Of a stretch of DNA of 64,000 bases, positions 2,391 to 24,357 are shown one piece after another (the first letter of the stretch is position 1; every line of letters begins with the position of its first letter). The position numbers were made by a program, and so were the translations under genes. The notes under the pieces are model-generated. The model saw only the letters and a program-made list of their open reading frames with translations. It was not told the origin of the DNA and ran no database searches. This DNA comes from Bacteroidota bacterium (GTDB lineage Bacteria; Bacteroidota; Ignavibacteria; UBA10030; UBA6906): assembly GCA_019637975.1 (NCBI GenBank), contig JAHBUR010000003.1:1-64000 (forward strand). The letters run 5' to 3'.

Positions 2391-2615
2391 ATGACAAACA
2401 CAAACGCAATCTACTCGACGATGGTCAAGTCCGGAAAGACGACTTACTTCATCGACCTGAAGGAGGCGAAGAACGGGAACAAGTATCTTTCGATTTCCGA
2501 GACCCGGATGGATGGCGAAGAGAAGAAGCGCAACACTGTTCGTGTGTTCGGCGAAACGATGGAGCAGTTCCGCAAGGCCATCGAAGAGGCGTCGGCTGCG
2601 GCGGTCCAGGCGTAA
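2391..2615 (+). CDS. DUF3276 (PUR-alpha-like) nucleic-acid-binding protein
   Basis: A 74-residue protein with the PUR-repeat pattern of the DUF3276 family common in Bacteroidota: YSTMVKSGKTTYFIDLKEAKNG, then KYLSISETR and a closing helix (GETMEQFRKAIEEAS). PUR proteins bind single-stranded DNA or RNA. The gene has a good Shine-Dalgarno (TTGGAGG), its own upstream box shared with the sigma cassette, and a strong terminator, so it is transcribed alone. It is the best visible candidate for a target of the neighbouring regulatory cassette. Confidence 0.75.
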   Translation: MTNTNAIYSTMVKSGKTTYFIDLKEAKNGNKYLSISETRMDGEEKKRNTVRVFGETMEQFRKAIEEASAAAVQA

Positions 2616-2636
2616 TTGTCTTTCGCGCACAAGCGT

Positions 2637-2668
2637 GGGCAATCCGGTGGGGGATTGCCCTTTCGTTT
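2637..2668 (+). terminator. Rho-independent terminator after the DUF3276 gene
   Basis: A perfect nine-pair stem (GGGCAATCC 2637-2645, GGATTGCCC 2652-2660) with a six-base loop is followed by TTTCGTTT. Its T-rich tail overlaps the -33 box of the next promoter. Confidence 0.85.
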
Positions 2669-2697
2669 GACTGCCGCGTTCAGGAATAGTATATTGC
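2666..2697 (+). promoter_or_regulatory. Bacteroidota-type promoter for the antitoxin gene
   Basis: TTTG at 2666-2669, a 20-base spacer, then TATATTGC at 2690-2697. This fits the TTTG-N19/21-TAnnTTTG housekeeping consensus of Bacteroidota. Transcription would start about 2703, just before the Shine-Dalgarno of the gene at 2729. Confidence 0.55.
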
Positions 2698-2728
2698 ATC
2701 CAGACCTTAATTACCCACGGAGGTTTCG

Positions 2729-2962
2729 ATGAGTACAGATGAACTGAAGACCTTGTTGCATGAGAGCATTGACACGATTGACGATGTTGAATTGTTGGAA
2801 GGGCTGCGTCAGATCATTGAGGCAAGCAAGAATGATGATGAAATTGTCATTCCCGATTGGCAAAAAAGGATATTAGATGAGAGCGAGGAACAAGTGGCTC
2901 GCGGAGAGTTCAAGACGCACGAGGAAGTATTCAAATCAATCGACAAATGGCTCAGGAAATAG
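2729..2962 (+). CDS. Antitoxin-like small protein (partner of ParE/RelE remnant)
   Basis: A 77-residue acidic protein (MSTDELKTLLHESIDTIDD..., ending HEEVFKSIDKWLRK) preceded by GGAGG. Its size, the mid-protein IPDWQKRILDESEEQVARGE segment and the 16-base overlap with a downstream ParE/RelE-like frame match addiction-module antitoxins of the CC2985/ParD-like type. The toxin is frameshifted, so the antitoxin is probably a relic that is still intact. Confidence 0.65.
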   Translation: MSTDELKTLLHESIDTIDDVELLEGLRQIIEASKNDDEIVIPDWQKRILDESEEQVARGEFKTHEEVFKSIDKWLRK

Positions 2963-3242
2963 TCTGGACAAGAAGAGCGGAAGATGATCTAAACAGTATA
3001 CTGAGCTACTGGATTGAAAGGAACGGAAGTGACACCTACAGCAACAGATCAGGGATGCAGTGTACAGACTCGTTCACAATGTTTCGTTGCTTCCAACAAT
3101 TGGAAAACGTGTGGCGGGGAGAAGCGAACGGTGTATTATCTGGAAGCATTTCTTCATTTTCTACTCCATAATCGAAGGCGGAATTAGGATTATCCACATC
3201 TGGGATAGCCGCCGAAACCCAGCCGATATGCAAAGACCCTGA
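2947..3242 (+). pseudogene. ParE/RelE-type toxin, frameshifted
   Basis: The first 30 or so codons from 2947 read MAQEIVWTRRAEDDLNSI with SYWIERNGSDTY, a typical ParE/RelE N-terminus (helix 1-helix 2). After about 3037 the homology moves to another frame (CAGCAACAG onward: QQIRDAVYRLVHNVS, IGKRVAG, then IRIIHIWDSRRNPADMQ), which contains the family's C-terminal IWDSRRNP strand. A small deletion or insertion near 3035-3045 explains the break. The product is truncated and very likely inactive. Confidence 0.75.
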
Positions 3243-3318
3243 TCCCTGACCCTTTCTTGCCCTTTTAGCATCTTATCAGCAGAATCTTAATATCCACGAA
3301 AGGAGCAAGAACACAACA

Positions 3319-10709: not shown

Positions 10710-10806
10710 TGGATTCTTACACCCTCTCAAAAAAAACGAACAAATCGGAACTTCATCCCCGAATAGGTTGTTGGAAATGCGCTCACATATCGACAACTCT
10801 GGATTG

Positions 10807-12336
10807 ATGAAAAAAATAGCAATTATAGGATCAGGCTTCGGAGGTTTGGCAGAAGCAATCCGTCTGCAAAGCCGCGGCTACGATGTAACGATTTTTGAAA
10901 AACGTGAGAAAGTTGGAGGGCGCGCATACCAGCTTGTAAAGAACGGCTACACATTCGACATGGGGCCGTCGCTGATTACGGCGCCGTTCATCATCGAGCG
11001 GGTGTTTGAAGCGGCGGGCAAGCGGATGGAGGATTACATCGAGCTTCAGTCGCTCGACCCGTTCTATCGCATCTATTTCCACGATAAGTCTTACATGGAC
11101 TATTCGGGCGATGCGGAAATAATGAAAAAGGAAATGGCAAAGTTCAATCCGGCTGACGCTGCCAACTACGACAGGTTTTTCGAAGACGTCAAACCTATCT
11201 ACGATGCAGTAATAACCGAAGGGCTTGGTTCAACGCCATTTCTTACGTGGAAGTCGTTTCTGAACTTCGTCCCCCGGGCGTTATCGCTCGGAGGGCTGAC
11301 CCCGGTGTATTCGTTTGCTTCAAAATACTTCAAAGACGAGCGGAACAGGTTTGCGTTTTCTTTTCATCCGTTGTTTATCGGTGGATCGCCGTTTCGTGCT
11401 CCGAGCATTTACATTATGATTCCGTATCTGGAAAAAACAGCCGGCGTGTGGTACGCAAAAGGCGGAATGTACAGTCTTGTCAAGGCTTTCGAGCAAGTCT
11501 TCCTCGAATCGGGCGGGACCATCCGAACCAACGCCGAAGTCAGCGAGATAGTTGTCGACAATGGCAGTACTACAGGCGTTGTTGCTAACGGCGAATTTCA
11601 TGCGGCTGATGCCGTCATTGCCAACGGCGATGTTCCCTTCACGTACAAGAATCTCATCAAACCGCAACATCGAAAGAAATGGTCGGACGCATCTGTTGAC
11701 AGGTTGCATATCACGATGAGTTGCTTCCTGCTGTACATCGGCACGAAAAAACAGTATCCGCAATTGAAGCATCACACACTCATTTTAAGTCAGCGTTACA
11801 AGGAACTCGTCAGGGATATTTTTGAAAGAAAGATTCTTGCGGATGATTTTTCGATCTACCTTCATGTGCCCAGCCGTTCGGACGCATCAATGGCACCGCT
11901 CGGCTGCGAAAGCATGTATTTGCTGGTTCCGGTACCGCATCTCGGCAGCGGGGTTGACTGGCATAAGCAAGCCGGTCCGTTCAAGGAACGCATTCTGAAT
12001 TTCCTCGAAAACGATTTCGGGATGACTGACCTTCGGGCGAACATCGAGGTACTGGAGATGTTCACGCCGCTTGACTTCGAAGCACAACTGAATTCGCATT
12101 TAGGAAACGCATTTGCCATTGAGCCGCGCTTGACGCAGAGTGCGTTGTTCCGTCCGCATAACCGCAGCGAGGATATCGAGCGGCTCTATTTTGTCGGAGC
12201 CGGAACGCATCCGGGCGGCGGAGTGCCGGGTGTCCTGCTTTCGGCCGAGGCGACCGAGAAATGTGTGCTGCAGGATCTGGCTGAGTATGTGACGCCGCAA
12301 CGGGATGTCGTACCTCAACAACAGGAAGCCGCATAG
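10807..12336 (+). CDS. crtI: Phytoene desaturase (CrtI type)
   Basis: A 509-residue FAD-dependent desaturase/isomerase that converts phytoene to lycopene. It has an N-terminal Rossmann FAD motif (IAIIGSGFGGLAEAIRL, then EKREKVGGRA), the CrtI-type segment HPLFIGGSPFRAPSIY and the C-terminal bacterial phytoene dehydrogenase signature (YFVGAGTHPGGGVPGVL). ATG 10807 is preferred over 10768 because the FAD motif then begins at the usual position. First gene of the 13-kb carotenoid operon. Confidence 0.9.
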   Translation: MKKIAIIGSGFGGLAEAIRLQSRGYDVTIFEKREKVGGRAYQLVKNGYTFDMGPSLITAPFIIERVFEAAGKRMEDYIELQSLDPFYRIYFHDKSYMDYSGDAEIMKKEMAKFNPADAANYDRFFEDVKPIYDAVITEGLGSTPFLTWKSFLNFVPRALSLGGLTPVYSFASKYFKDERNRFAFSFHPLFIGGSPFRAPSIYIMIPYLEKTAGVWYAKGGMYSLVKAFEQVFLESGGTIRTNAEVSEIVVDNGSTTGVVANGEFHAADAVIANGDVPFTYKNLIKPQHRKKWSDASVDRLHITMSCFLLYIGTKKQYPQLKHHTLILSQRYKELVRDIFERKILADDFSIYLHVPSRSDASMAPLGCESMYLLVPVPHLGSGVDWHKQAGPFKERILNFLENDFGMTDLRANIEVLEMFTPLDFEAQLNSHLGNAFAIEPRLTQSALFRPHNRSEDIERLYFVGAGTHPGGGVPGVLLSAEATEKCVLQDLAEYVTPQRDVVPQQQEAA

Positions 12337-12376: not shown

Positions 12377-13282
12377 ATGAAGAAGACAATTCTCTCAACG
12401 GCAGATGTTGCACGCCTGTTCAATGTCACGGAAACAACCGTGAAAAGGTGGGCCAATGAAGGCACACTCAAGTGCATGAAAACACCCGGCGGACACCGCA
12501 AATTCGAGATGAAACATGTCGTGGAATTCGCCCAATCACTGAACTTCGAGCCGGCCGGTACGCTCAGTCTGACGCAGGAAGATACGCTTGCCGAGAGAAT
12601 TCAGGTTGGCGTACTCTCGCGTGACTTTGCAATCCTAAAAAACGCGTTTGTTGAAAAGGCGCTCGGAACGGGGAAGAAGGATCTGTTTTCCTACTTCTCC
12701 TATTTGTATCAACATCGCATTCATTTGTGGGAGTTGTTCGATCTGGTGATCGGCCCGGGCATGACGGAAATCGGTGCCCGATGGGCAAGCGGCGAACTTG
12801 ATGTGAATGCCGAACACCGGGCGTCGTACGAAACGCTGGAAGCGCTGGCGAAGCTGCAAACGCAAATCAACACAAAGCAACGAAAAACCGGCTTCCGCGT
12901 AATCTGTGCTTGCCCCGGTGAAGAACAGCATGAAATCGGCCTTCGATGCTCGTCGTATGTTTTTGAATCAGAAGGTTGGATGACACACTATTTTGGCGCC
13001 CGGACTCCCTATGAGTCCATTCTCAACGGCGTACGGACCCTCAAGCCGACAGCCGTGTGCCTTTCCATCACGACGGAGTCGGATGACAAGAGGGAAATCC
13101 AACAACTGCACAGTATGTTGAAAGAGCTGCATGATCTTCAACCCAACATTCTGATCGGGGGGAGAGCGGTTCAACAAAATGGTCACGCGCTGCTTGAATA
13201 TGCCTCACTGTATCGCAATTCTTTTGATTTGATGGCAGCTATTCAAAACCTCGAAATGAAAATCGGGCCAGTGTCAAACTGA
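12377..13282 (+). CDS. carH: CarH/CarA-like cobalamin-dependent light-responsive repressor
   Basis: A 301-residue protein with a MerR-type DNA-binding domain (residues 5-55: STADVARLFNVTETTVKRWA, TPGGHRKF), a four-helix cobalamin cap (about 75-160) and a B12-binding Rossmann domain (about 170-300). The cap has the Wx9EH motif (W136, E146, H147) that contacts adenosylcobalamin in CarH. The lower-ligand motif is E183-Q-H185-E-I-G188. The residue after W136 is alanine, where Thermus CarH has His132, the light-state upper ligand. It sits 40 bases after crtI inside the carotenoid operon, as in other CarH-controlled clusters. Family role: represses crt genes in the dark and releases DNA when light breaks the Co-C bond. 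Light response here is inferred. Confidence 0.85.
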   Translation: MKKTILSTADVARLFNVTETTVKRWANEGTLKCMKTPGGHRKFEMKHVVEFAQSLNFEPAGTLSLTQEDTLAERIQVGVLSRDFAILKNAFVEKALGTGKKDLFSYFSYLYQHRIHLWELFDLVIGPGMTEIGARWASGELDVNAEHRASYETLEALAKLQTQINTKQRKTGFRVICACPGEEQHEIGLRCSSYVFESEGWMTHYFGARTPYESILNGVRTLKPTAVCLSITTESDDKREIQQLHSMLKELHDLQPNILIGGRAVQQNGHALLEYASLYRNSFDLMAAIQNLEMKIGPVSN

Positions 13283-13313: not shown

Positions 13314-14261
13314 ATGATTGGTTTTCTTGACATCCAGGAACTTCACGAAAACTATCGGCAATGCCGGTTGTACACGCGGCACTATGCAAAGACATTCTAT
13401 TTTGCTTCACACATGTTGCCACGTGAGAAACGCCTTGCAGCGTATGCAGTGTATTCGTTCTGCCGCTACGCCGATGAGATAGCAGACCATGGAGCGGCAA
13501 TGGGGAACCATGTCCGGGCCCGGCGACGACTTGATGATTTGAGAAATCAGTTGAAGTATGTGTACAACAACTCACCGGCGATGGACGCGAAACTGCTCGC
13601 ATTCCGGGATACGGTGTTTCGCTATGCAATTCCGCAGGACTACTTCATGGACCTGCTTCGCGGTGTTGAAATGGATTTGGAGAAGAAGCGGTTTGCGGAT
13701 TTCTCAGAGCTCAACGATTACTGCTATTGTGTTGCCTCTGTTGTCGGGCTGATGATGACGAAGATTTTCGGAGTGTCCGATGATTCAGCGCTGCGACACG
13801 CGGCCGACTTGGGGACTGCAATGCAACTGACCAACATCCTGCGGGATGTTGGAGAAGATTACCGGCGTGGAAGGATTTATCTGCCCCAAGATGAGTTGGC
13901 GACGTTCGGATATTCGGAACGTGAGCTGAAGGACGGTGTCGTTAATCGGAATTTCAAACGATTGATGGAATTCCAGATTGACCGGGCCCGACGATACTAT
14001 GAATCTGCTGAACAGGGCATCCCGCTGCTCACAAATGACGGTTCGCGCTTCTGCGTCCGGCTTATGAGCACGACGTATGCGACGATTCTACCGAAGATAG
14101 AGAAGAACTCGTTCAACGTCTTCACGCTGCGTGCCAGTGTCCCGTTCGCACAGAAACTCGGCATTGCTCTGTTCGCGGCGGCAGGCTTCTCAAGAAAACA
14201 TCAATCAGCGGGCCGTACGAACCTTGAACCCTTCAGCCCTATACCCGCGGAGCAAATGTGA
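13314..14261 (+). CDS. crtB: Phytoene synthase
   Basis: A 315-residue squalene/phytoene synthase joining two GGPP molecules into phytoene. Both aspartate-rich motifs are seen: DEIAD (in FCRYADEIADHG) and D-x3-D in QLTNILRDVGEDYRRGRIYL. The N-terminal SKTF-type motif appears as AKTFYFAS. AAAGGA precedes ATG 13314. The gene ends by overlapping the GGPP synthase start (ATGA). Confidence 0.93.
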   Translation: MIGFLDIQELHENYRQCRLYTRHYAKTFYFASHMLPREKRLAAYAVYSFCRYADEIADHGAAMGNHVRARRRLDDLRNQLKYVYNNSPAMDAKLLAFRDTVFRYAIPQDYFMDLLRGVEMDLEKKRFADFSELNDYCYCVASVVGLMMTKIFGVSDDSALRHAADLGTAMQLTNILRDVGEDYRRGRIYLPQDELATFGYSERELKDGVVNRNFKRLMEFQIDRARRYYESAEQGIPLLTNDGSRFCVRLMSTTYATILPKIEKNSFNVFTLRASVPFAQKLGIALFAAAGFSRKHQSAGRTNLEPFSPIPAEQM

Positions 14262-15184
14262 ATGCAGCGATGAAAGTTCACGAGCGCCACGCCGGAACCG
14301 GCAGATACGAGTTCTTCAAATCGATCATCCGTGAGAGGATATCCTCTATACTGGCAGAGGTAAAGCCGCGAACATTGCAACGTGCAATGGAAGAATCCGT
14401 GTATGGCGGCAAGATGATTCGTCCAATCCTCGTAATGCTATCCTGTTCTGCAGTCGGGGGAAGCGAGCATGAAGCAGTTGATGCAGCAACTGCAATCGAA
14501 TTGCTCCATACATCATCCCTCATTCATGATGATATTATGGATGATTCGCCGTTGCGGAGGGGCGTGCCGACAATCCACACGACGCATGGCGTACCGATGG
14601 CGATTCTCGCAGGAGACGCATACATCGCCCTCGCTTTTCAGTTGATGCAGATGCACAATGGAGTGAACAGGGAGCGCATTCTGAATGTATTTGCGGATTC
14701 ATTCCGTCATGTGTGTGAAGGTCAGGGCTACGACCTCTGCTTGTCGCTCGTCAACTGTGCAGAAGATGATGCTCACTCACTTATGGTGGAGAAGAAGACA
14801 GCAAAACTCATGCAATCGGCAACCGAGATCGGGGCAATGATCGGGACATCCGATCAAGAACATATTCAAGCCCTTTCATACTACGGATACAATCTTGGAG
14901 TGGCGTTTCAAGCACAGGATGATTTACTCGATGCAACCGGCGATGAAGAACGGATGGGCAAACCCGTTCTGATAGATGTGAAGAACGGGAGAAGCACGTA
15001 TGTGACTTCGGACGCATTCACGATAGCAGTTTCTGACAATCGTGCTGATGCAATTCATGCGACGAAGTACCTTGTTCAGAAGTACACGCATGAAGCATGT
15101 TCGTCGCTCGACCGGCTGCCGCCATGTGAAGCAAATGAAATGCTCCGGACGTTGGCAAGATCACTGATGAGTCGGGAGGCTTAG
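14258..15184 (+). CDS. crtE: Geranylgeranyl diphosphate synthase (polyprenyl synthetase)
   Basis: A 308-residue trans-isoprenyl diphosphate synthase with the first aspartate-rich motif in SLIHDDIMDDSPLRRG and the second in FQAQDDLLDATGD, plus the GGKMIRP substrate motif near the N-terminus. Its position between crtB and the photolyase gene argues that it makes GGPP for carotenoids. Chain length is inferred from context. Translationally coupled to crtB. Confidence 0.88.
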   Translation: MNAAMKVHERHAGTGRYEFFKSIIRERISSILAEVKPRTLQRAMEESVYGGKMIRPILVMLSCSAVGGSEHEAVDAATAIELLHTSSLIHDDIMDDSPLRRGVPTIHTTHGVPMAILAGDAYIALAFQLMQMHNGVNRERILNVFADSFRHVCEGQGYDLCLSLVNCAEDDAHSLMVEKKTAKLMQSATEIGAMIGTSDQEHIQALSYYGYNLGVAFQAQDDLLDATGDEERMGKPVLIDVKNGRSTYVTSDAFTIAVSDNRADAIHATKYLVQKYTHEACSSLDRLPPCEANEMLRTLARSLMSREA

Positions 15185-15188
15185 GCAA

Positions 15189-16613
15189 GTGCCGGCAAAC
15201 AAGCGGTACAATCGGGTAGTTGTCTGGATGCGTCGGGCGATGCGTGTCAGCGACAATACTGCCCTCTATGCGGCAATGCAGGATGCCAACGAGATAGTCC
15301 CTGTCTTGTGTTTGAACACGGAGAAGCGCTACGAATCCGAAACACCCAGAAGACGTTATGTCCGATCAGCAATCGCTTCGCTGGACTCCGAGCTTCGATC
15401 ACGACGCTCACAATTGTTCGTCCTCTCCGGCGATATTGTGGACGAGCTTCCACGATTTGTACGGGAGGTCGGTGCCGAGATGGTGTATGGAGTGGATGTG
15501 TACGATCCCTTTTCTCTCTATCGTGATCAGCAACTTCGACGAAGTCTTTTTCAGGTGGGGGTCGAACTGGTATTGCTGAAAGACCGGGTGATGTTTGAGA
15601 AGAAGGAAATCCTCAATCAATCAAAGCAACCGTTCAAAGTCTTCACCCCGTACAAAAAAGCGTGGCTTGCGTTCAGCGACTCAATTCCCCCTCTGCTTCC
15701 GGAGATCAGGACTATTTCTTCGCCTCCGGATGCCGATGGCCGTTTCTCACTCAGCAGGCAAAGAACGTTTGCCTCCGCTCATCGGGATACTGAAACAGTC
15801 GCCCTCAGGCAGCTCCGGCAATTTGTCAAGGAGAAGATCCTCTCCTACAAGGACAAAAGGGATTATCCGGCGATCGATGCAACATCAAAACTTTCGGCAG
15901 CTCTTTCGCTTGGAGTTGTTTCCATACGGCAGGTATATCGGGAGGCAATCGAACAGAAAAAAAATGCCGACAAGCGTGGCAAAGAACATATCGACACGTT
16001 CATCAGCGAGTTGATCTGGCGGGAGTTCTACTATCAAATACTTGCAAACTATCCTCATGCTGCCGAGCGTTCATTCAGGGATGAGTTTGAAAAGTTGGAG
16101 TGGAGGGAGAATCAGAAGCATTTTACAGCATGGTGTGAAGGCCGTACGGGGTACCCGATTGTTGATGCGGGAATGCGGCAACTTGTTCAGGAAGGATGGA
16201 TGCACAACCGGGTTCGCATGATCGTTGCATCGTTTCTCACGAAAGACCTTCACATCAGCTGGCAATGGGGCGAGAAGTTTTTCCTCGATCACCTCTGTGA
16301 TGCTGATATTGCTGTGAATAACGGCGGGTGGCAATGGGCGGCGGGAACAGGAACGGACGCTTCGCCGTGGTTCCGCATCTTCAATCCGGTTTCGCAAGGA
16401 AAACGATTCGACCCGACCGGCGACTACGTCAGGAAATATGTTCCGGAATTAAAGAACATTCCCTCGGAGTTGATTCACTCGCCCTGGACGATGGATGCCA
16501 AGACTGCAAATGGCTTCGGTATCGGCAAAATATACCCCGCGCCGATTGTTGATCATGCGGCGGAACGGGATGTCACAATTGACATCTACAAAAATGCAGC
16601 GTCACGCAAGTAA
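15189..16613 (+). CDS. phr: Class I deoxyribodipyrimidine photolyase
   Basis: A 474-residue cryptochrome/photolyase-family flavoprotein. An N-terminal antenna-binding domain (VVVWMRRAMRVSDNTALYAA) is joined to a helical FAD domain with TSKLSAALSLGVVS, ISELIWREFYYQ, GYPIVDAGMRQL, MHNRVRMIVASFL and the hallmark NNGGWQWAAGTGTDA. Blue light repairs cyclobutane pyrimidine dimers. Start GTG 15189 is five bases after the GGPP synthase stop. Placing photolyase in a CarH-type pigment operon links UV repair and photoprotection. Confidence 0.92.
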   Translation: MPANKRYNRVVVWMRRAMRVSDNTALYAAMQDANEIVPVLCLNTEKRYESETPRRRYVRSAIASLDSELRSRRSQLFVLSGDIVDELPRFVREVGAEMVYGVDVYDPFSLYRDQQLRRSLFQVGVELVLLKDRVMFEKKEILNQSKQPFKVFTPYKKAWLAFSDSIPPLLPEIRTISSPPDADGRFSLSRQRTFASAHRDTETVALRQLRQFVKEKILSYKDKRDYPAIDATSKLSAALSLGVVSIRQVYREAIEQKKNADKRGKEHIDTFISELIWREFYYQILANYPHAAERSFRDEFEKLEWRENQKHFTAWCEGRTGYPIVDAGMRQLVQEGWMHNRVRMIVASFLTKDLHISWQWGEKFFLDHLCDADIAVNNGGWQWAAGTGTDASPWFRIFNPVSQGKRFDPTGDYVRKYVPELKNIPSELIHSPWTMDAKTANGFGIGKIYPAPIVDHAAERDVTIDIYKNAASRK

Positions 16614-16630
16614 TCTGACACAACTTCTGA

Positions 16631-17098
16631 ATGTATAGCATGATTCGGTTCACTCTCATCTTGGTAAGCTCGTTCATCGTCATGGAGTTCGTCTCCTACC
16701 TTGCGCACCGGTTTGTATATCACGGGTTCGGCTGGATTTTCCACAAGAGTCACCACGAACCGCGCCACGGCATCTTTGAATGGAACGACATCTTCCCGAT
16801 GATCTTTGCTGCCATCACAATAAGTCTGATGATGTTCGGCCTTGCAGATCCGAGCCGAAGCGACATTGTTGCACTGAGCATCGGCATTACCTTGTACGGG
16901 CTTGTGTATTTCTTCATTCACGATCTGTATGTTCATCGCCGGGCAAAATGGATGCGGCTGCGCATTCCCTTTCTCCTCAAACTCAAACAGGCACACGCCA
17001 TTCATCACCGGTATGGCGGCGAGCCTTACGGCTTATTGATGTTCTTCAATGCTGAAAGAGTGCAGAAGGAACATGTTGACGAAGACGAGGTCGTGTGA
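16631..17098 (+). CDS. crtZ: Beta-carotene 3-hydroxylase (CrtZ type)
   Basis: A 155-residue membrane di-iron hydroxylase with the four histidine clusters of the CrtZ/fatty-acid-hydroxylase family: HRFVYHG, HKSHHEPRH, HDLYVHRR and HAIHH, between hydrophobic helices. It should add a 3-hydroxyl to the beta-ionone ring. ATG 16631 or ATG 16640 could be the start. The stop overlaps the start of the next gene. Confidence 0.88.
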   Translation: MYSMIRFTLILVSSFIVMEFVSYLAHRFVYHGFGWIFHKSHHEPRHGIFEWNDIFPMIFAAITISLMMFGLADPSRSDIVALSIGITLYGLVYFFIHDLYVHRRAKWMRLRIPFLLKLKQAHAIHHRYGGEPYGLLMFFNAERVQKEHVDEDEVV

Positions 17099-18600
17099 AG
17101 AAGGTCGTCATCATAGGTGCAGGGCTCGGCGGGTTGGCGGCAGCCATCCGGTTGGCGCAGTACGGCTACAGCGTGACGATCGTCGAGAAGAACGAGCGGG
17201 TTGGCGGCAAAATGGATATCGTCCGTCGCAACGGCTATACGTTTGATACCGGACCATCCTTGCTGACAATGCCGTCTATCATCAAGGAATTGTTCACTTC
17301 AGTCGGCGAAGCAATGGAGGATCACATCACGTTGGTTCCTGTAGATCCGATTTGCCGCTATTGGTTCTCGGACGGAGCAACGTTGGATGCGTCGGGTAAT
17401 CTCAAGACAACAGAAGAAGAAATAGCCCGGCTAAGCCCCTCGGATGTTGAAGGGTTTCGAAAATTCATTGCGCACGGGGAGAGAATCTACAAGGCATCAG
17501 CGGACACATTTCTCTTTCAGCCGTTCGGTTCCCTTGACGTCAAGTGTATTCTCGGTAACATCAAGCGTTTGCCGGCTGTCGCAAAGCTGGACGCGTTCAG
17601 GACGCTGGACGATGCGGTCGAATCATTTTTTGCCGATTCGCGGTTGCGGCAACTCTTCAACCGTTTTGCCACGTACAACGGCTCCTCGCCGTATCACGCT
17701 CCGGCAACACTGGCAATCATCCCGTACATCGAATTTGCATTCGGCGGCTGGTATGTGGAAGGCGGAATGTACAAACTGGCAGCGGCGCTCGAAGGCTTGG
17801 CAAAGAGAAAAGGCGTACGGATTCAGAGATCATTTGAAGTGAGTAACATCGTTGCAGAAGGCAAGAGAGCAAAGGGGATTCTGTCGAAATCGGGCGGGAT
17901 GATACCTGCTGACATTGTGATCAGCAATGCTGACGCGTTGTACACGCACAAAGAATTACTGAATGGAAGTCGGGGGAAATTCGAAAGCGTAGAACCGTCT
18001 CTCAGCGGGTTTGTGCTGTTGCTGGGAATCAGGAAGATATTCCCCCAGTTGAAGCATCACAATGTATTTTTCTCAGCCGATTACAAAGACGAATTCGATG
18101 TGATGTTCAATCACCTCAAGCCTTCTCCCGACCCGACGATTTATATCTGTCAGACATCTCTGAGTGACAGTTCGCACGCCCCTGCGGGATGCTCGAACAT
18201 ATTTGTATTGGTGAATGCCCCCCCGCTCCGTTGTGCCGGAGCGGACAGTTCACGGGAGTATCTGTTTGATTGGGAGAAGGAGAAGCACGAGTATCGCAAT
18301 CTGATACTTCGAAAACTGTCGGCACTCGGACTCGGTGATATTGAGAAACATATCGAGTACGAAGAGATCATCACACCGCTTGATTTTGAGAGACGCTACA
18401 ATGCGTATCGCGGTTCAATCTATGGCACATCATCGAATAGCAGAATGGCCGCTTTCCTGCGTCCTCCCAACAAATCTGCGGAAGTGGAAAACCTGTACTT
18501 TGCAGGCGGGAGTTCGCATCCGGGAGGGGGAATTCCGCTGGTTCTGCTTTCCGGTAAAATCGTGGCGGACATGATTCAACAACAGCATGGCCCGGCATGA
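17095..18600 (+). CDS. crtD: CrtD-like carotenoid 3,4-desaturase
   Basis: A second CrtI-family flavoenzyme (501 residues): FAD motif VVIIGAGLGGLAAAIRLAQY, then FDTGPSLLTMPSII, and C-terminal YFAGGSSHPGGGIPLVLLSG. The mid-region RFATYNGSSPYHAPATLAI resembles 1-hydroxycarotenoid 3,4-desaturases (CrtD) rather than phytoene desaturase. It would introduce the 3',4' double bond next to the 1'-hydroxyl made by CruF. Start GTG 17095 overlaps the crtZ stop. The exact desaturation position is inferred. Confidence 0.78.
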   Translation: MKKVVIIGAGLGGLAAAIRLAQYGYSVTIVEKNERVGGKMDIVRRNGYTFDTGPSLLTMPSIIKELFTSVGEAMEDHITLVPVDPICRYWFSDGATLDASGNLKTTEEEIARLSPSDVEGFRKFIAHGERIYKASADTFLFQPFGSLDVKCILGNIKRLPAVAKLDAFRTLDDAVESFFADSRLRQLFNRFATYNGSSPYHAPATLAIIPYIEFAFGGWYVEGGMYKLAAALEGLAKRKGVRIQRSFEVSNIVAEGKRAKGILSKSGGMIPADIVISNADALYTHKELLNGSRGKFESVEPSLSGFVLLLGIRKIFPQLKHHNVFFSADYKDEFDVMFNHLKPSPDPTIYICQTSLSDSSHAPAGCSNIFVLVNAPPLRCAGADSSREYLFDWEKEKHEYRNLILRKLSALGLGDIEKHIEYEEIITPLDFERRYNAYRGSIYGTSSNSRMAAFLRPPNKSAEVENLYFAGGSSHPGGGIPLVLLSGKIVADMIQQQHGPA

Positions 18601-19024
18601 CATGACAATCAGCGTAACGCAATTCGTGAAGGCACCGCATGAATCCGTACGAGAGTTCTATGATGATGTCAAGAATTTGAAACGGATTTCCCCGCCGTTC
18701 CCGCGTCTTCACATTGAGGCCGATGACACGCGTGTAGTTCAAGGAAGAGAGTTCCGGATTACGCTTGACTTCCTGGTATTCAGTTTCCACTGGAACTCCG
18801 CAATTGAGCGTGTTGTACCGGGCGAGTATTTTGTCGACACGTTCCGCGGAAGCGTGTTCCGGTTCTGGAAGCATACGCACAAGTACGAGTCTGAAGGTAC
18901 GGGTACCCGCTTGACCGATGTTGTCGAGTGCCGGCCTGTGTGGTGGTTTGCGCCCTTTGCCTTCCCGGCAGTCCGGTTGTTGTTTATGTATCGCAGGCGG
19001 GCGATTGCAGAGGTGTTGGGATGA
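18587..19024 (+). CDS. SRPBCC-fold protein of the carotenoid operon (1)
   Basis: A 145-residue START/Bet-v1-like (SRPBCC) protein. The N-terminal strand-helix (ISVTQFVKAPHESVREFYDD), the antiparallel sheet (FSFHWNSAIERVVPGEYFVD, FRFWKHTHKYES) and the C-terminal long helix are all present, outlining a hydrophobic cavity. It may carry or bind a carotenoid or lipid intermediate; no catalytic residues are recognised. It overlaps crtD by 14 bases and the acyltransferase by four. Confidence 0.7.
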   Translation: MARHDMTISVTQFVKAPHESVREFYDDVKNLKRISPPFPRLHIEADDTRVVQGREFRITLDFLVFSFHWNSAIERVVPGEYFVDTFRGSVFRFWKHTHKYESEGTGTRLTDVVECRPVWWFAPFAFPAVRLLFMYRRRAIAEVLG

Positions 19025-19743
19025 TCGAAGCAAACAAAAACGTTGCGTTCAAAACGGTATTCAGTTTGTACAATACCCGGCTTCTCCGCAGGCATTTCTT
19101 CAGGGTTCATCTCGGAGGATTGGAACATATCCGGCAACTGGATCGAACGCGACCGGTTCTTTTCATCGGGAACCATTGTTGTTGGTGGGATGGATTGATC
19201 GAGTATCATCTCGCAACAGAAGTGCTGGATGCTGACATTTATCTCATGATGGAAGAACGGCAGATGGTCCGCTACAGATTCTTCCGGTGGTTGGGGGCGT
19301 TTTCCGTGCGGCGCGAGTCCCCCCGATCGTCCGTCGAGTCAATGCAATACGCAGCCTCATTATTCGACACACCGAACCGCTTTCTCTGGATGTATCCGCA
19401 AGGGGAGATGAAGCCGAATGATGTTCGTCCGTTGGGTTTCTTTCCCGGAGCTGCCCGTATTATTCAAATGGTGGGACGTCCTGTCCAGGTCGTTCCGTTT
19501 GCCCGTCGCTACGAATTTCTGATGGAACAACGCCCCGAAGCATTTACCCTCTTCGGAAAACCGATGCTCGTCGATCCCGCACAGGATTTCAGGGAGACGA
19601 CTGAACAATTCGAGCATGCCGTGACAGGGTTGCTGGATACGCTGCGCTGCAAAATTGCGGACTCAGACATGAGTGGCTTTAAGACAGTTCTGAAAGGCAG
19701 CGCTTCCACAAATAACAAGTATGACGCTGTGAGAATGAAATGA
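19021..19743 (+). CDS. PlsC-type acyltransferase, likely carotenoid glycoside acyltransferase
   Basis: A 240-residue lysophospholipid acyltransferase-superfamily protein with the HX4D catalytic motif (GNHCCWWDG) and a second block (MYPQGEMKP) equivalent to the FPEG motif. Sitting immediately before a membrane glycosyltransferase in a carotenoid operon, it most likely esterifies the sugar of a carotenoid glycoside, like CruD or staphyloxanthin CrtO. Start ATG 19021 overlaps the SRPBCC stop. Substrate is inferred. Confidence 0.75.
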   Translation: MIEANKNVAFKTVFSLYNTRLLRRHFFRVHLGGLEHIRQLDRTRPVLFIGNHCCWWDGLIEYHLATEVLDADIYLMMEERQMVRYRFFRWLGAFSVRRESPRSSVESMQYAASLFDTPNRFLWMYPQGEMKPNDVRPLGFFPGAARIIQMVGRPVQVVPFARRYEFLMEQRPEAFTLFGKPMLVDPAQDFRETTEQFEHAVTGLLDTLRCKIADSDMSGFKTVLKGSASTNNKYDAVRMK

Positions 19744-20897
19744 CCTTGTCCGATTATCACATACTCATCTTGTGCTTGCTTCTGTGCATGGGGGCAGTTG
19801 CAGTTCTCAACATCTATACCTTCGGCAGGATCCGGCCATCCCAAAAACCGCAACACCGCCGGATGGTTTCAGTTCTGATTCCTGCCCGAAACGAAGCGCA
19901 GAACATCGGGGTGTGTCTTTCCGGACTTGCCGGTCAGGACTATCCCGAATATGAGATCATCGTGCTTGATGATAATTCACACGACGGAACGGCGGCAATT
20001 GTTCAACAGTGGGAACGCACGGATTCTCGCGTCAGGCTTGTTCGCGGTGCTCCGTTACCTCCGGGTTGGGTGGGAAAGTGTTTCGCATGCCATCAGCTTG
20101 CGCAACAAGCCCGGGGTGAACTGCTGTTGTTCACAGACGCCGATACGGAACATTCACGCTTCAGCATATCGGCAGCGGTTGCGGCAATGGAGCGCTCACG
20201 AGCGGATTTGCTGACGGTGATTCCGTTTCTCAAGCTGAAAACATTCTGGGAAAAGACGGTGATGCCGATGCTTCATTTCACAACGTTTTGCTTTCTGCCG
20301 TTTCCTCTCGTCAGCGCATCCCGGAATCCGAAATTTGCGATGGCGAACGGACAGTTCATGCTGTTCAAGCGAAGCGTGTACGATGCAATCGGGGGACATG
20401 AAGCGGTCAAGGATGCGCTTGTTGAAGATGTGTGGCTGTCGCGGCTTGTCAAACAGCGCGGCTACCAACTCCGGATAATGGATGGCGTCAGGATTGTTTC
20501 ATCACGTATGTACCGATCGTTCAATCAGATTTGGCAGGGATTCTCAAAAAATTTCTTTCCCGGTTTCAAATACTCGCTTCCGGCGATAGCTGCCGTAATT
20601 TTCTTCAACGTCGTCACCTCAATTGCCCCGTTCGGCTTTCTCGTTATGTTGTTCTTCTCGTCTGAAACTTTTGAATGGACCCCGATTGTTATCAGCCAGG
20701 TAAGTCTCATCCTGGCGATTCGGCTGTTGATGGCTCAGAGGTTCAAGATGAATCTTCCGGCAACACTCTTGCATCCCGTGGGGATGGCAGTGGTAGCAGG
20801 CATAGCAATCAACTCGGTCCGATGGGCATTGTGGAGCGGCGGATTGCGATGGAAGGGGAGAACATACAATTTCCGGAGCGGGAATGCAGTGTCGTAA
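19740..20897 (+). CDS. GT2 family glycosyltransferase, CruC-like
   Basis: A 385-residue membrane glycosyltransferase. An N-terminal membrane helix is followed by a GT-A fold (VSVLIPARNEAQNIG, EIIVLDDNSHDGT, ELLLFTDADTEHS with the DxD, VKDALVEDVWLSRL with ED, and QIWQGFSKN as a Q/RxxRW-like element) and three or four C-terminal helices. This matches carotenoid glucosyltransferases such as CruC, which act on the tertiary 1'-hydroxyl. Coupled to the acyltransferase by a four-base overlap. Confidence 0.78.
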   Translation: MTLSDYHILILCLLLCMGAVAVLNIYTFGRIRPSQKPQHRRMVSVLIPARNEAQNIGVCLSGLAGQDYPEYEIIVLDDNSHDGTAAIVQQWERTDSRVRLVRGAPLPPGWVGKCFACHQLAQQARGELLLFTDADTEHSRFSISAAVAAMERSRADLLTVIPFLKLKTFWEKTVMPMLHFTTFCFLPFPLVSASRNPKFAMANGQFMLFKRSVYDAIGGHEAVKDALVEDVWLSRLVKQRGYQLRIMDGVRIVSSRMYRSFNQIWQGFSKNFFPGFKYSLPAIAAVIFFNVVTSIAPFGFLVMLFFSSETFEWTPIVISQVSLILAIRLLMAQRFKMNLPATLLHPVGMAVVAGIAINSVRWALWSGGLRWKGRTYNFRSGNAVS

Positions 20898-20938
20898 TCA
20901 GTTGGATTCTTTCATGTATTAAGCGTACAAGGAGTAGC

Positions 20939-21493
20939 GTGGGAGTACTGATTTTCTTGATTCTGTTCAATAACAGTTCTTTTGTTGTTGATGTTACGAC
21001 AACAACTTCCTACACAGTTGACCTTTCCCGCGAAGCGTTACGGGGTTATGTGGACGACATCGGGTTGTTTGCCCGCCACATGCCGGGTGTGGTTTCCGTG
21101 AAACCGGTAGGCGAAAACACCTTTCTGTATCAAACGGAAAAGCAGATTCCTCTCGCGGGAAAAATGAGCACGGATTTCCTGATTGCGAAATCCGTTGTTG
21201 GGGATTCGATGACACTCTACCGGTCAGTCAGCATCGACGATCCGAATTACATGTCTTGTGCCGTCACAATCAAACCGGAAACAGAGAACTCGACGCAGAT
21301 TCATATCCGGTTGCGGCTCCGGCTGAGCAGAAACGCCGGGTCGGAAATCCACTGGCTGGCTCCGGTTCTTGGCGAGGCGTTCATTGAATCACGAATGCGT
21401 GCTGATATGGAGAGTATGTTAGCGACATTTATTGCAAGCTCGAACAAGGAACTCTACAGTCATCTCTCCAATCAAACGTCGCAACGCAGATGA
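20939..21493 (+). CDS. SRPBCC-like exported or anchored protein of the carotenoid operon (2)
   Basis: A 184-residue product from GTG 20939 (AGGAG upstream); the frame is open much further back inside the glycosyltransferase gene, so the start is a choice. A short hydrophobic N-terminus (VGVLIFLILFNNSSFVV) precedes a START-like fold: TTSYTVDLSREALRGYVDDI, HMPGVVSVKPVGEN, then long antiparallel strands. No family is firmly recognised. It is probably a lipid or pigment-binding partner. Overlaps cruF by four bases. Confidence 0.5.
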   Translation: MGVLIFLILFNNSSFVVDVTTTTSYTVDLSREALRGYVDDIGLFARHMPGVVSVKPVGENTFLYQTEKQIPLAGKMSTDFLIAKSVVGDSMTLYRSVSIDDPNYMSCAVTIKPETENSTQIHIRLRLRLSRNAGSEIHWLAPVLGEAFIESRMRADMESMLATFIASSNKELYSHLSNQTSQRR

Positions 21494-22320
21494 GCGTATT
21501 CCTTCAGCGCCGGTTTCTTGCATTCTCAGCTGGCTTTTCGCGAAGGCGGGAGGAAGAGGTTTTCAAGCAGGTATTTCTTCTTACCGGTTTTCTTTCCGTG
21601 TGCGGCCTTGTGTTCGTTGCCGGAGGGCTTTTGCCGGATGAGTTTGCGTGGTCGGCTTCAGTGATTATCATACTCCACGGAACTGTTACGTTTGTCTCGG
21701 AACTGCGGGCACGATCATTCGCCCGCAATGCCTTGATTTTCTTTGTGTTAGCAGGCGGTACATTTGCAGTAGAATATGTTGGAGTGACAACGGGATATCC
21801 GTTCGGCGCGTACACCTATACCACTACCCTCGCTCCGCTGCTGTTTGACGTTCCCGTAGCAATTGGTTTTGCCTGGTACGCAACCATCATGAATACCCGG
21901 AGAATTGCGGAATGGATTCATGGAACCGTCCCTCTTCTGCAAATTGCCTTTACTGCCTCGTTGCTGACGCTTGCGCTTGATATCGCGCTCGAACCGATGG
22001 CATCGGCCATCAACCGCTACTGGCTGTGGAACGACGGCGAAGTTCCTGTACAGAATTACATGAGCTGGTTCCTGATCGGATTTGTCTGTGTAGCCGCAAT
22101 CCGGGCAACGGGGGAACGTATTCCTGTCGCCCGGAGTCTCCCGATGCAGATTGTTGCGTTAACGGTCTATGCGTTGCAGTTGGTACTTTTTGTCATCACT
22201 GATCTGGTACACGGGTTTGCATCGGCAGTTGGATTTTCGCTTCTTTTTGTGGCTGTGGCAATTATTTCCGGTTACCGGCACCGATGGCATCCGGCGCGTA
22301 AGAGTGCGGAGGAAGGATGA
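21490..22320 (+). CDS. cruF: Carotenoid 1',2'-hydratase (CruF family)
   Basis: A 276-residue polytopic membrane protein of the CruF/DUF422 family, with about seven hydrophobic helices and conserved polar pieces FAVEYVGVTTGYPFGAYTYT and IALEPMASAINRYWLWND. In Deinococcus and green sulfur bacteria CruF adds water across the C-1',2' double bond of the psi end of gamma-carotene. This supplies the hydroxyl that CrtD and the glycosyltransferase need. Confidence 0.88.
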   Translation: MSVFLQRRFLAFSAGFSRRREEEVFKQVFLLTGFLSVCGLVFVAGGLLPDEFAWSASVIIILHGTVTFVSELRARSFARNALIFFVLAGGTFAVEYVGVTTGYPFGAYTYTTTLAPLLFDVPVAIGFAWYATIMNTRRIAEWIHGTVPLLQIAFTASLLTLALDIALEPMASAINRYWLWNDGEVPVQNYMSWFLIGFVCVAAIRATGERIPVARSLPMQIVALTVYALQLVLFVITDLVHGFASAVGFSLLFVAVAIISGYRHRWHPARKSAEEG

Positions 22321-22945: not shown

Positions 22946-23449
22946 ATGAACGTCCACACGTTGACGCGGGTTCAGACTCTCGACTATCCGATTGATGAAG
23001 TATTTGAATTCTTCCGCTCGCCGGAGAATCTTGCACGCATCACACCGCCGTGGCTGAATTTCAGAATTCTCACGCCGCTGCCACTGGAAATGCATCGGGG
23101 GACATTGATTGACTATACCGTGAACTGGTTAGGAATGCCGGTTCGTTGGACAACAAACATTGTGGAGTTCAATCCGCCTCACCACTTCGTCGATCTGCAA
23201 ATCAGCGGACCCTATTCTTTTTGGCATCATACTCATACATTTCTCGAACAGAACGGTAAGACGGATATGCGTGATGAGGTTCGATACGTTCTTCCTTTTG
23301 GTATTTTCGGAGAGGCGGTTCACCGATTGATTGTTCGGCGTCAGCTTGAGGAGATTTTTGATTACAGAGAGAGGGCCGTACGTCGGCAGTTTGCGGAGCC
23401 CAAGATAGTCAGGCAGTATGTTCATTCGGAGCAGGAGGAGGTTTTATGA
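22946..23449 (+). CDS. SRPBCC family protein of the carotenoid operon (3)
   Basis: A 167-residue START-like protein of the COG4276 type (TLDYPIDEVFEFFRSPENLARITPPW, read in two parts; PYSFWHHTHTFLEQN; C-terminal helix VHRLIVRRQLEEIFDYRE). It is the third protein of this fold in the operon and overlaps the TIGR01777 gene by four bases. The cavity is hydrophobic; the ligand is unknown. Confidence 0.78.
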   Translation: MNVHTLTRVQTLDYPIDEVFEFFRSPENLARITPPWLNFRILTPLPLEMHRGTLIDYTVNWLGMPVRWTTNIVEFNPPHHFVDLQISGPYSFWHHTHTFLEQNGKTDMRDEVRYVLPFGIFGEAVHRLIVRRQLEEIFDYRERAVRRQFAEPKIVRQYVHSEQEEVL

Positions 23450-24357
23450 AGATAGTGATAGCTGGCGGTACGGGATTCATAGGCAGGAATGTGATGGAGC
23501 ATTTTGCAGCGTCCAGCCATTCGGTTGTCTTGCTAAGTCGGAATCCGGCTGCAGTCAAGGTGCCTCAATGGCCCAATGTTCATGTAGTGAAATGGGACGG
23601 CAGAACAGCTGGAGCATGGTACTCGGAAATCGAGGGTGCTGACGCAATCGTCAATCTTGCGGGCGAGTCCATTGGCGGAAAACGTTGGACATCAAATCAA
23701 AAGCAGAAGATTCTCGAAAGTCGCATCAATGCAACGCGTGCCCTCATCGAATCAGTCAACCGCGCAAAAAAGAAACCTCCTGTTCTCATTAACGGCTCGG
23801 CAGTTGGTTACTACGGGCCTGTTGAGAGTGATGACGTGACCGAATCGCACGCTCGCGGTAATGGCTTCCTCGCCGATGTATGCGAAGCGTGGGAACGCGT
23901 GGCACTGTCAGCGCAACAATACGGTACGCGGGTTGTACTGTTGCGAACTGCTGTTGTCATCGGAGGAGGCAGCGTTGCCCTCGAAAAACTCTCACTGCCC
24001 TTCAAACTGTATGTTGGCGGGCCGATCGGCTCGGGAAGACAATGGTTTCCGTGGATTCATGTGAACGATGTCATGCGTGCCATACAGTTTGCAATTGAAT
24101 CCGAGTCCATCTCCGGCCCTCTTAATCTTGCGGCCCCCGAACCTTCAACAATGAAGCAGTTCTGTCGGGCGCTTGGCAAAGCAATGCAGCGGCCATCCTG
24201 GGCGCCGGTGCCGGGGTTTATTCTGAAGATCGCTCTCGGCGAAATGTCAAGTATGATTCTGACGGGACAAAAGGTTGTTCCCTCTAAGCTTCTACAACAC
24301 GGGTACTCATTTATCTTTCCAAAATTAGATGGTGCGTTAGGAGATATTTTTTCATAG
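23446..24357 (+). CDS. TIGR01777 family epimerase (SDR)
   Basis: A 303-residue extended short-chain dehydrogenase-like protein: NAD(P) motif IAGGTGFIGRNV, NLAGESIGGKRWT, NGSAVGYYGP with the YxxxD-like site, and DUF1731-type C-terminus. The family (YfcH-like) has no settled function. It often sits beside SRPBCC genes, as here, and is probably the last gene of the carotenoid operon. Confidence 0.88.
   Translation: MKIVIAGGTGFIGRNVMEHFAASSHSVVLLSRNPAAVKVPQWPNVHVVKWDGRTAGAWYSEIEGADAIVNLAGESIGGKRWTSNQKQKILESRINATRALIESVNRAKKKPPVLINGSAVGYYGPVESDDVTESHARGNGFLADVCEAWERVALSAQQYGTRVVLLRTAVVIGGGSVALEKLSLPFKLYVGGPIGSGRQWFPWIHVNDVMRAIQFAIESESISGPLNLAAPEPSTMKQFCRALGKAMQRPSWAPVPGFILKIALGEMSSMILTGQKVVPSKLLQHGYSFIFPKLDGALGDIFS

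Follow-up and report, generated by a model that had tools for sequence, protein, structure and literature searches.

We conclude, with fair confidence, that the regulator P0001 is an AdoCbl-dependent repressor of the CtMerR type, which green light inactivates and which controls a carotenoid (crt) operon and an unlinked gene for an ECF sigma factor. To judge from its sequence, P0001 is a CarH-type B12 domain joined to a BldC-type DNA-binding domain. Its gene has its start ATG at 12377 and its stop at 13282 on the + strand of the window, by which we mean the whole 64,000-nucleotide stretch of DNA that was analysed. Within it we distinguish the following features:

12377–13282, + strand: P0001, B12-binding MerR/BldC-type transcriptional regulator, CtMerR-like, 301 aa
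12389–12541, + strand: BldC-type winged HTH, residues 5–55
12584–12859, + strand: cobalamin-domain cap, four-helix bundle, residues 70–161 (predicted structure, fold match)
12782–12787, + strand: W136 and A137, the TtCarH W131-H132 position
12812–12817, + strand: E146-H147 (Wx9EH motif)
12884–13264, + strand: cobalamin-binding Rossmann subdomain, residues 170–296 (Pfam, predicted structure, fold match)
12920–12940, + strand: E182 and the lower-ligand motif E183-Q-H185-E-I-G188

Class membership of the regulator

Domain make-up, residue identities and class membership of P0001 are established at the level of sequence, as is the conservation of the operator and promoter of its system. The Pfam models HTH_17, MerR_1, B12-binding_2 and B12-binding all match the protein, B12-binding_2 with 21.9 bits (slightly below the cut-off of 23) and B12-binding with 31.1 against a cut-off of 32.1 (32.8 in the genome search). 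The cap reads G133-A-R-W136-A137-S138 followed by E146-H147, so Wx9EH is present; the lower-ligand side carries E183-Q-H185-E-I-G188, S230-x-T232 and G261-G262, in agreement with the pattern D/ExHx2G-x41-SxT/V-x22-27-GG, except that the last spacer, at 28, is one residue above the range. W136, A137, E146-H147 and E183-Q-H185-x-x-G188 thus lie, by ORF translation and by alignment, where the sequence-only reading had placed them. The gene belongs to an Ignavibacteria-type lineage, its nearest GTDB record, 'uncultured Chlorobi bacterium CHB1', being 92% identical; a regulator match was found in 33 of the 60 relatives searched.

Among solved proteins, the nearest in sequence is CtMerR of Chloracidobacterium thermophilum (8JBS/8JBT; E = 3e-35), with Thermus thermophilus CarH (TtCarH) at E = 1e-10. 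The AlphaFold model of P0001 (pLDDT 89) matches CtMerR in both its dark and light forms with Z 26.7, the photocobilins with 22.9–24.8, MetH with 20.6 and TtCarH with 19.2. A tree of the cobalamin domain only, built without the trait column, splits the rows exactly by type of DNA-binding domain (support 95), and in it P0001 groups with CtMerR among the BldC-type rows. P0001 scores 61.5 bits against the CarH model NF052513, well under its cut-off of 400, and 57.1 bits against the BldC family NF033787, whose cut-off is 77; two features of the CarH class, the CarH-type HTH and the histidine after the tryptophan, are absent. The description of the protein as CarH-like, given in the sequence-only reading, holds for the B12 domain but not for the DNA-binding domain and operators, which are those of another class.

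The CtMerR report (PMC11796333) describes a green-light photoreceptor with arginine at the His132 place, which binds AdoCbl, responds to 530 nm and passes from tetramer to monomer in light. P0001 shares with it the BldC-type HTH, the CarH-type cobalamin domain, Wx9EH, the lower-ligand histidine and the lack of a histidine after the tryptophan, besides the top sequence and fold match and a common cobalamin-domain clade; the two differ in that CtMerR has arginine rather than alanine after the tryptophan and keeps the GxxH glycine, which is E182 in P0001. CarH proteins (T. thermophilus 5C8A-F, Bacillus, Myxococcus) have the same cobalamin fold, Wx9EH, lower-ligand histidine and linkage to carotenoid genes, but another HTH (RxWERRY), 11-bp TnnACA operators and, in TtCarH, His132 with a bis-His light state. 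The photocobilins SasPcob and AbPcob (8J2W/8J2X/8J2Y; PMC10979010) likewise sense light through an AdoCbl domain without the upper histidine, but this domain is fused to a biliverdin-binding domain and there is no DNA-binding domain.

Absence of the upper-ligand histidine

HMMER aligns W136-A137 without gaps to W131-H132 of TtCarH, and also to the W-R of CtMerR, confirming that A137 stands at the His132 position. With alanine there and no substitute histidine placed, a light state other than the His132/His177 bis-His adduct is probable, as had been proposed. In the predicted structure of P0001 no other histidine is positioned to take its role. H113 and H116 were considered as upper ligands and rejected: they precede the N-terminal end of helix 117–137 (21 residues), at whose C-terminal end W136 lies, and the helix length would set them roughly 30 Å from W136. 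The only nearby histidine is His147 of the conserved EH pair.

That His147 or Glu146 replaces His132 as a direct cobalt ligand in the light state is highly improbable. The signature Glu and His do both rotate in light-exposed CtMerR, which favours such a role, but the same report (PMC11796333) describes aquo/hydroxocobalamin in the anaerobic light structure, with the motif Glu turned and its cobalt contact made through water. TtCarH, moreover, has the equivalent of His147 too, yet uses His132.

The loss of the upper histidine is not rare. An alignment of 83 sequences that retain W, E, H and H comprises 82 of BldC type, P0001 and CtMerR included, and TtCarH. In it histidine follows the tryptophan only twice, in TtCarH and L050; elsewhere the residue is E (20), A (18), S (8), Q (7), M (6) or others. 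In none of 30 CarH-class homologues from Bacteroidota is it histidine. These homologue sets came from Bacteroidota-centred and pattern-based searches, so the counts are not a census. P0001 is a single copy, and its own genome holds no paralogue with histidine at the His132 position. A plasmid search returned mostly Thermus CarH and unrelated MerR proteins. Many myxobacterial CarH do carry the histidine, according to a study of myxobacteria; we found no literature on Bacteroidetes CarH. In five sequences from the same phylum (L029, L030, L096, L098 and L108) the tryptophan, the EH pair and the lower-ligand histidine are lost together; these may be B12-independent regulators, parallel to CarA of Myxococcus xanthus.

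Absence of the histidine is thus the rule in the class of P0001, with a solved precedent in CtMerR. Other published light-responsive B12 domains also lack it: SasPcob has Gln and AbDPcob Tyr in place of His132, yet both are AdoCbl-binding and sensitive to green light, and the photocobilin light state is water- or hydroxide-ligated (PMC10979010). The idea that P0001 is a distinctive natural variant finds no support in this comparison. A rare form of CarH in which the lost histidine gives special photochemistry, such as reversibility or use of another cobalamin, is accordingly very unlikely. A137 is real, and TtCarH H132A does yield a hydroxylated Co(III) product with far less loss of tetramer, but the histidine is missing from nearly all of the subfamily and from all 30 CarH-class Bacteroidota homologues, and CtMerR acts as an AdoCbl photoreceptor without it (PMC11796333). 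One group finds that TtCarH H132A mostly remains tetrameric, whereas an earlier report has it falling apart; given the former study, loss of the oligomer without the histidine is not automatic.

The carotenoid operon and its predicted operator

The regulator gene lies second in the crt operon, in the order crtI, regulator, crtB, crtE, photolyase, crtZ-like gene and second crtI:

10736–10753, + strand: predicted operator in the crt operon leader, ACGAACAAA followed by a degenerate second unit, TCGGAACTT
10747–10772, + strand: predicted sigma-R/ECF-type promoter GGAAC-N18-GTT, whose -35 and the second operator unit overlap
10807–12336, + strand: crtI-family phytoene desaturase, first operon gene (the listed ORF runs from TTG 10768; ATG 10807 fits the predicted promoter)
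13314–14261, + strand: phytoene synthase crtB
14258–15184, + strand: geranylgeranyl diphosphate synthase-like crtE (read from sequence)
15189–16613, + strand: DNA photolyase
16631–17098, + strand: crtZ-like carotenoid hydroxylase (FA_hydroxylase)
17095–18600, + strand: second crtI-family desaturase

The order crtI-regulator-crtB-crtE-phr-crtZ recurs in three relatives (L031, L036 and L037); in other relatives, which have no carotenoid genes, glgB, the regulator gene and a TIGR01777 oxidoreductase gene remain adjacent. After the crt genes, the window encodes an acyltransferase, a CruG/HpnB-like glycosyltransferase and a CruF-like carotenoid hydratase (18928–22320), which suggest a glycosylated, perhaps acylated carotenoid. 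An SRPBCC protein and a TIGR01777/ThyD-like oxidoreductase follow at 22946–24357, the latter being the gene that stays beside the regulator in relatives without carotenoid genes.

In relatives, tandem 9-bp repeats, WCGNNCAWA, stand ahead of the regulator gene. We scored them with a matrix built from nine seed loci that were picked by eye and excluded from the test sets. At period 9, 23 of 70 other upstream regions reached at least 12 bits, as against 0/70 coding controls and 0/30 CarH-class upstream regions (Fisher p = 1.4e-4 for the latter); at any other period, at most four upstream regions did so. CarH is known to use 11-bp TnnACA operators, and runs of this kind occur in 4/30 CarH-class upstream regions versus 1.5% in shuffles, while they are at chance level in the class of P0001. 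Repeats of the 9-bp type are also found upstream of L075 and L082, close relatives of CtMerR.

The repeats read AWAW-CGNN-C, which fits the 9-bp direct repeats AATTXXXX(C) bound by BldC (6AMA/6AMK; PMC5859096). BldC is also similar to P0001 in its HTH sequence, and its Arg30, which contacts a C-G pair (PMC5859096), aligns with R24 of P0001, an invariant residue. It differs in being a 68-residue protein with no sensor domain, and P0001 scores below the BldC family cut-off.

No single unit on the two strands of the 64-kb window scores better than ACGAACAAA at 10736–10744. The predicted operator consists of one strong and one degenerate unit. A general repeat finder returned no convincing inverted or direct repeats near the P0001 gene. 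Genome-wide counts of two loose patterns were not clearly above their reversed-pattern controls (27 versus 19 and 344 versus 415), and for that reason the regulon was called only from sites that are conserved across genomes. Elsewhere in the same genome, a perfect double site, ACGTACAAAACGTACATA, precedes a lipoprotein-like gene (L149, C12:109005) and marks a possible third target.

A predicted ECF sigma relay

The ACGAACAAA unit adjoins the GGAAC-N18-GTT promoter before the crt operon. GGAAC-N18/19-GTT occurs in 9 of 15 crt or regulator leaders, compared with a shuffle mean of 0.09, and also in five of the leaders of the ECF sigma gene itself; apart from two cases at 15, the only spacings between GGAAC and GTT in the leaders are 18 and 19. 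The motif resembles the promoters GGAAT-N18-GTT of SigR and GGGAAC of SigH (PMC2375139). We detected no sigma-70 promoter above chance in the crt operon leader.

A strong double site of the 9-bp type lies after TTGACA-N17-TATAAT, before an ECF sigma gene, at C7:93521 of the same genome. The best family model for this gene is TIGR02947/SigH, although the score is below that model's cut-off. A 9-bp repeat site accompanies the orthologue in 14 of the 14 examined genomes that have one, always with at least 9 bits and in 12 of the 14 with at least 12, whereas none of 17 ECF paralogues has a site of at least 12 bits. The sigma gene is mostly unlinked to the regulator gene. At one locus (L046), a diverged ECF gene (1913–2428), with a TTGACA-type promoter and a weaker version of the repeat site, directly precedes the regulator gene (2485–3267); one genome that is 85% complete (G020) has an ECF orthologue with a weak site and no regulator match.

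A published parallel in design is LitR–LitS of Streptomyces (PMC12705666), in which LitR, a B12 MerR light regulator, acts on the gene for an ECF sigma factor that transcribes the crt genes. LitR is described as activating litS in light; the circuit predicted for P0001 differs in that its sigma gene is mostly unlinked and carries the site just after the -10, a position that suggests repression in the dark.

Proposed mechanism

The following is our inference for P0001, from cobalamin binding, the light response and the change of oligomer to the direction of control and the relay through the sigma factor. In the dark, AdoCbl would be held between His185, the lower ligand, and the cap residues Trp136 and Glu146, and would drive formation of an oligomer whose DNA-binding domains lie head-to-tail along the tandem 9-bp repeats. 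Light would break the Co–C bond and release the adenosyl group. Since residue 137 is not a histidine, water or hydroxide would become the cobalt ligand, probably held through a Glu146 that has turned like its counterpart in CtMerR, and the oligomer would come apart. This would free both targets, the crt operon (which holds the P0001 gene) and the unlinked gene for the sigma-R-type ECF factor, and the sigma factor, once made, would transcribe the crt operon using the GGAAC-N18-GTT promoter.

What looks new here is the class of operator and the relay through a sigma factor. It is quite possible, and we suggest it tentatively, that they belong to a second, widely distributed type of B12 light repressor that has a BldC-type HTH, lacks the upper histidine and occurs in Ignavibacteria, Acidobacteriota and other phyla; it would dispense with bis-His ligation, read tandem 9-bp repeats and, in Ignavibacteria, control crt genes through a sigma-R-type ECF factor, an arrangement reached separately from LitR–LitS of Streptomyces. 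H132A CarH is largely tetrameric in one study, yet CtMerR monomerises with no histidine there; the subfamily offers many natural proteins on which to test how the light signal reaches DNA when the upper histidine is missing. The predicted operators, those of CtMerR relatives included, provide concrete DNA targets, and from the site at the sigma-factor gene comes a candidate for a light-switchable promoter, suitable for trial in laboratory hosts.

Predicted cobalamin binding and supply

The CtMerR paper (PMC11796333) gives the signature of the light response as GxxW, EH, GxxH and GxxxP. P0001 has GxxW (G133-A-R-W136), EH (E146-H147) and GxxxP (G207-A-R-T-P211), but in place of GxxH it reads E182-E-Q-H185, with Glu for Gly, a point absent from the sequence-only reading. 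P0001 thus falls outside the strict published signature, with CtMerR as its nearest relative and working likeness; for this reason its cobalamin binding is presented above as a prediction, and its affinity for AdoCbl may differ. The glycine position is variable in the close family of P0001 too.

Glu182, together with domain scores slightly below two Pfam cut-offs, would also suit a light-independent regulator that binds OHCbl, MeCbl or nothing useful and senses B12 or redox state, and M. xanthus CarA is an evolved B12-independent relative. We regard this as unlikely: the subfamily conserves W, E, H and the lower-ligand H, relatives that have lost the function (L029, L030 and L096) drop all four residues together, and the operon contains photolyase and carotenoid genes.

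A supply of AdoCbl for a light-inactivated repressor is likely, because the genome contains a cobalamin riboswitch and genes for a PduO-type adenosyltransferase and for two B12 domains, identified by sequence reading as those of methylmalonyl-CoA mutase and methionine synthase. Two contig ends each carry a piece of the adenosyltransferase gene (L114/L115; C34 and C66), which is likely an assembly break rather than a loss of the gene. Methionine synthase seems to be encoded by two ORFs (L112, on C6), the second of which begins at the cobalamin domain.
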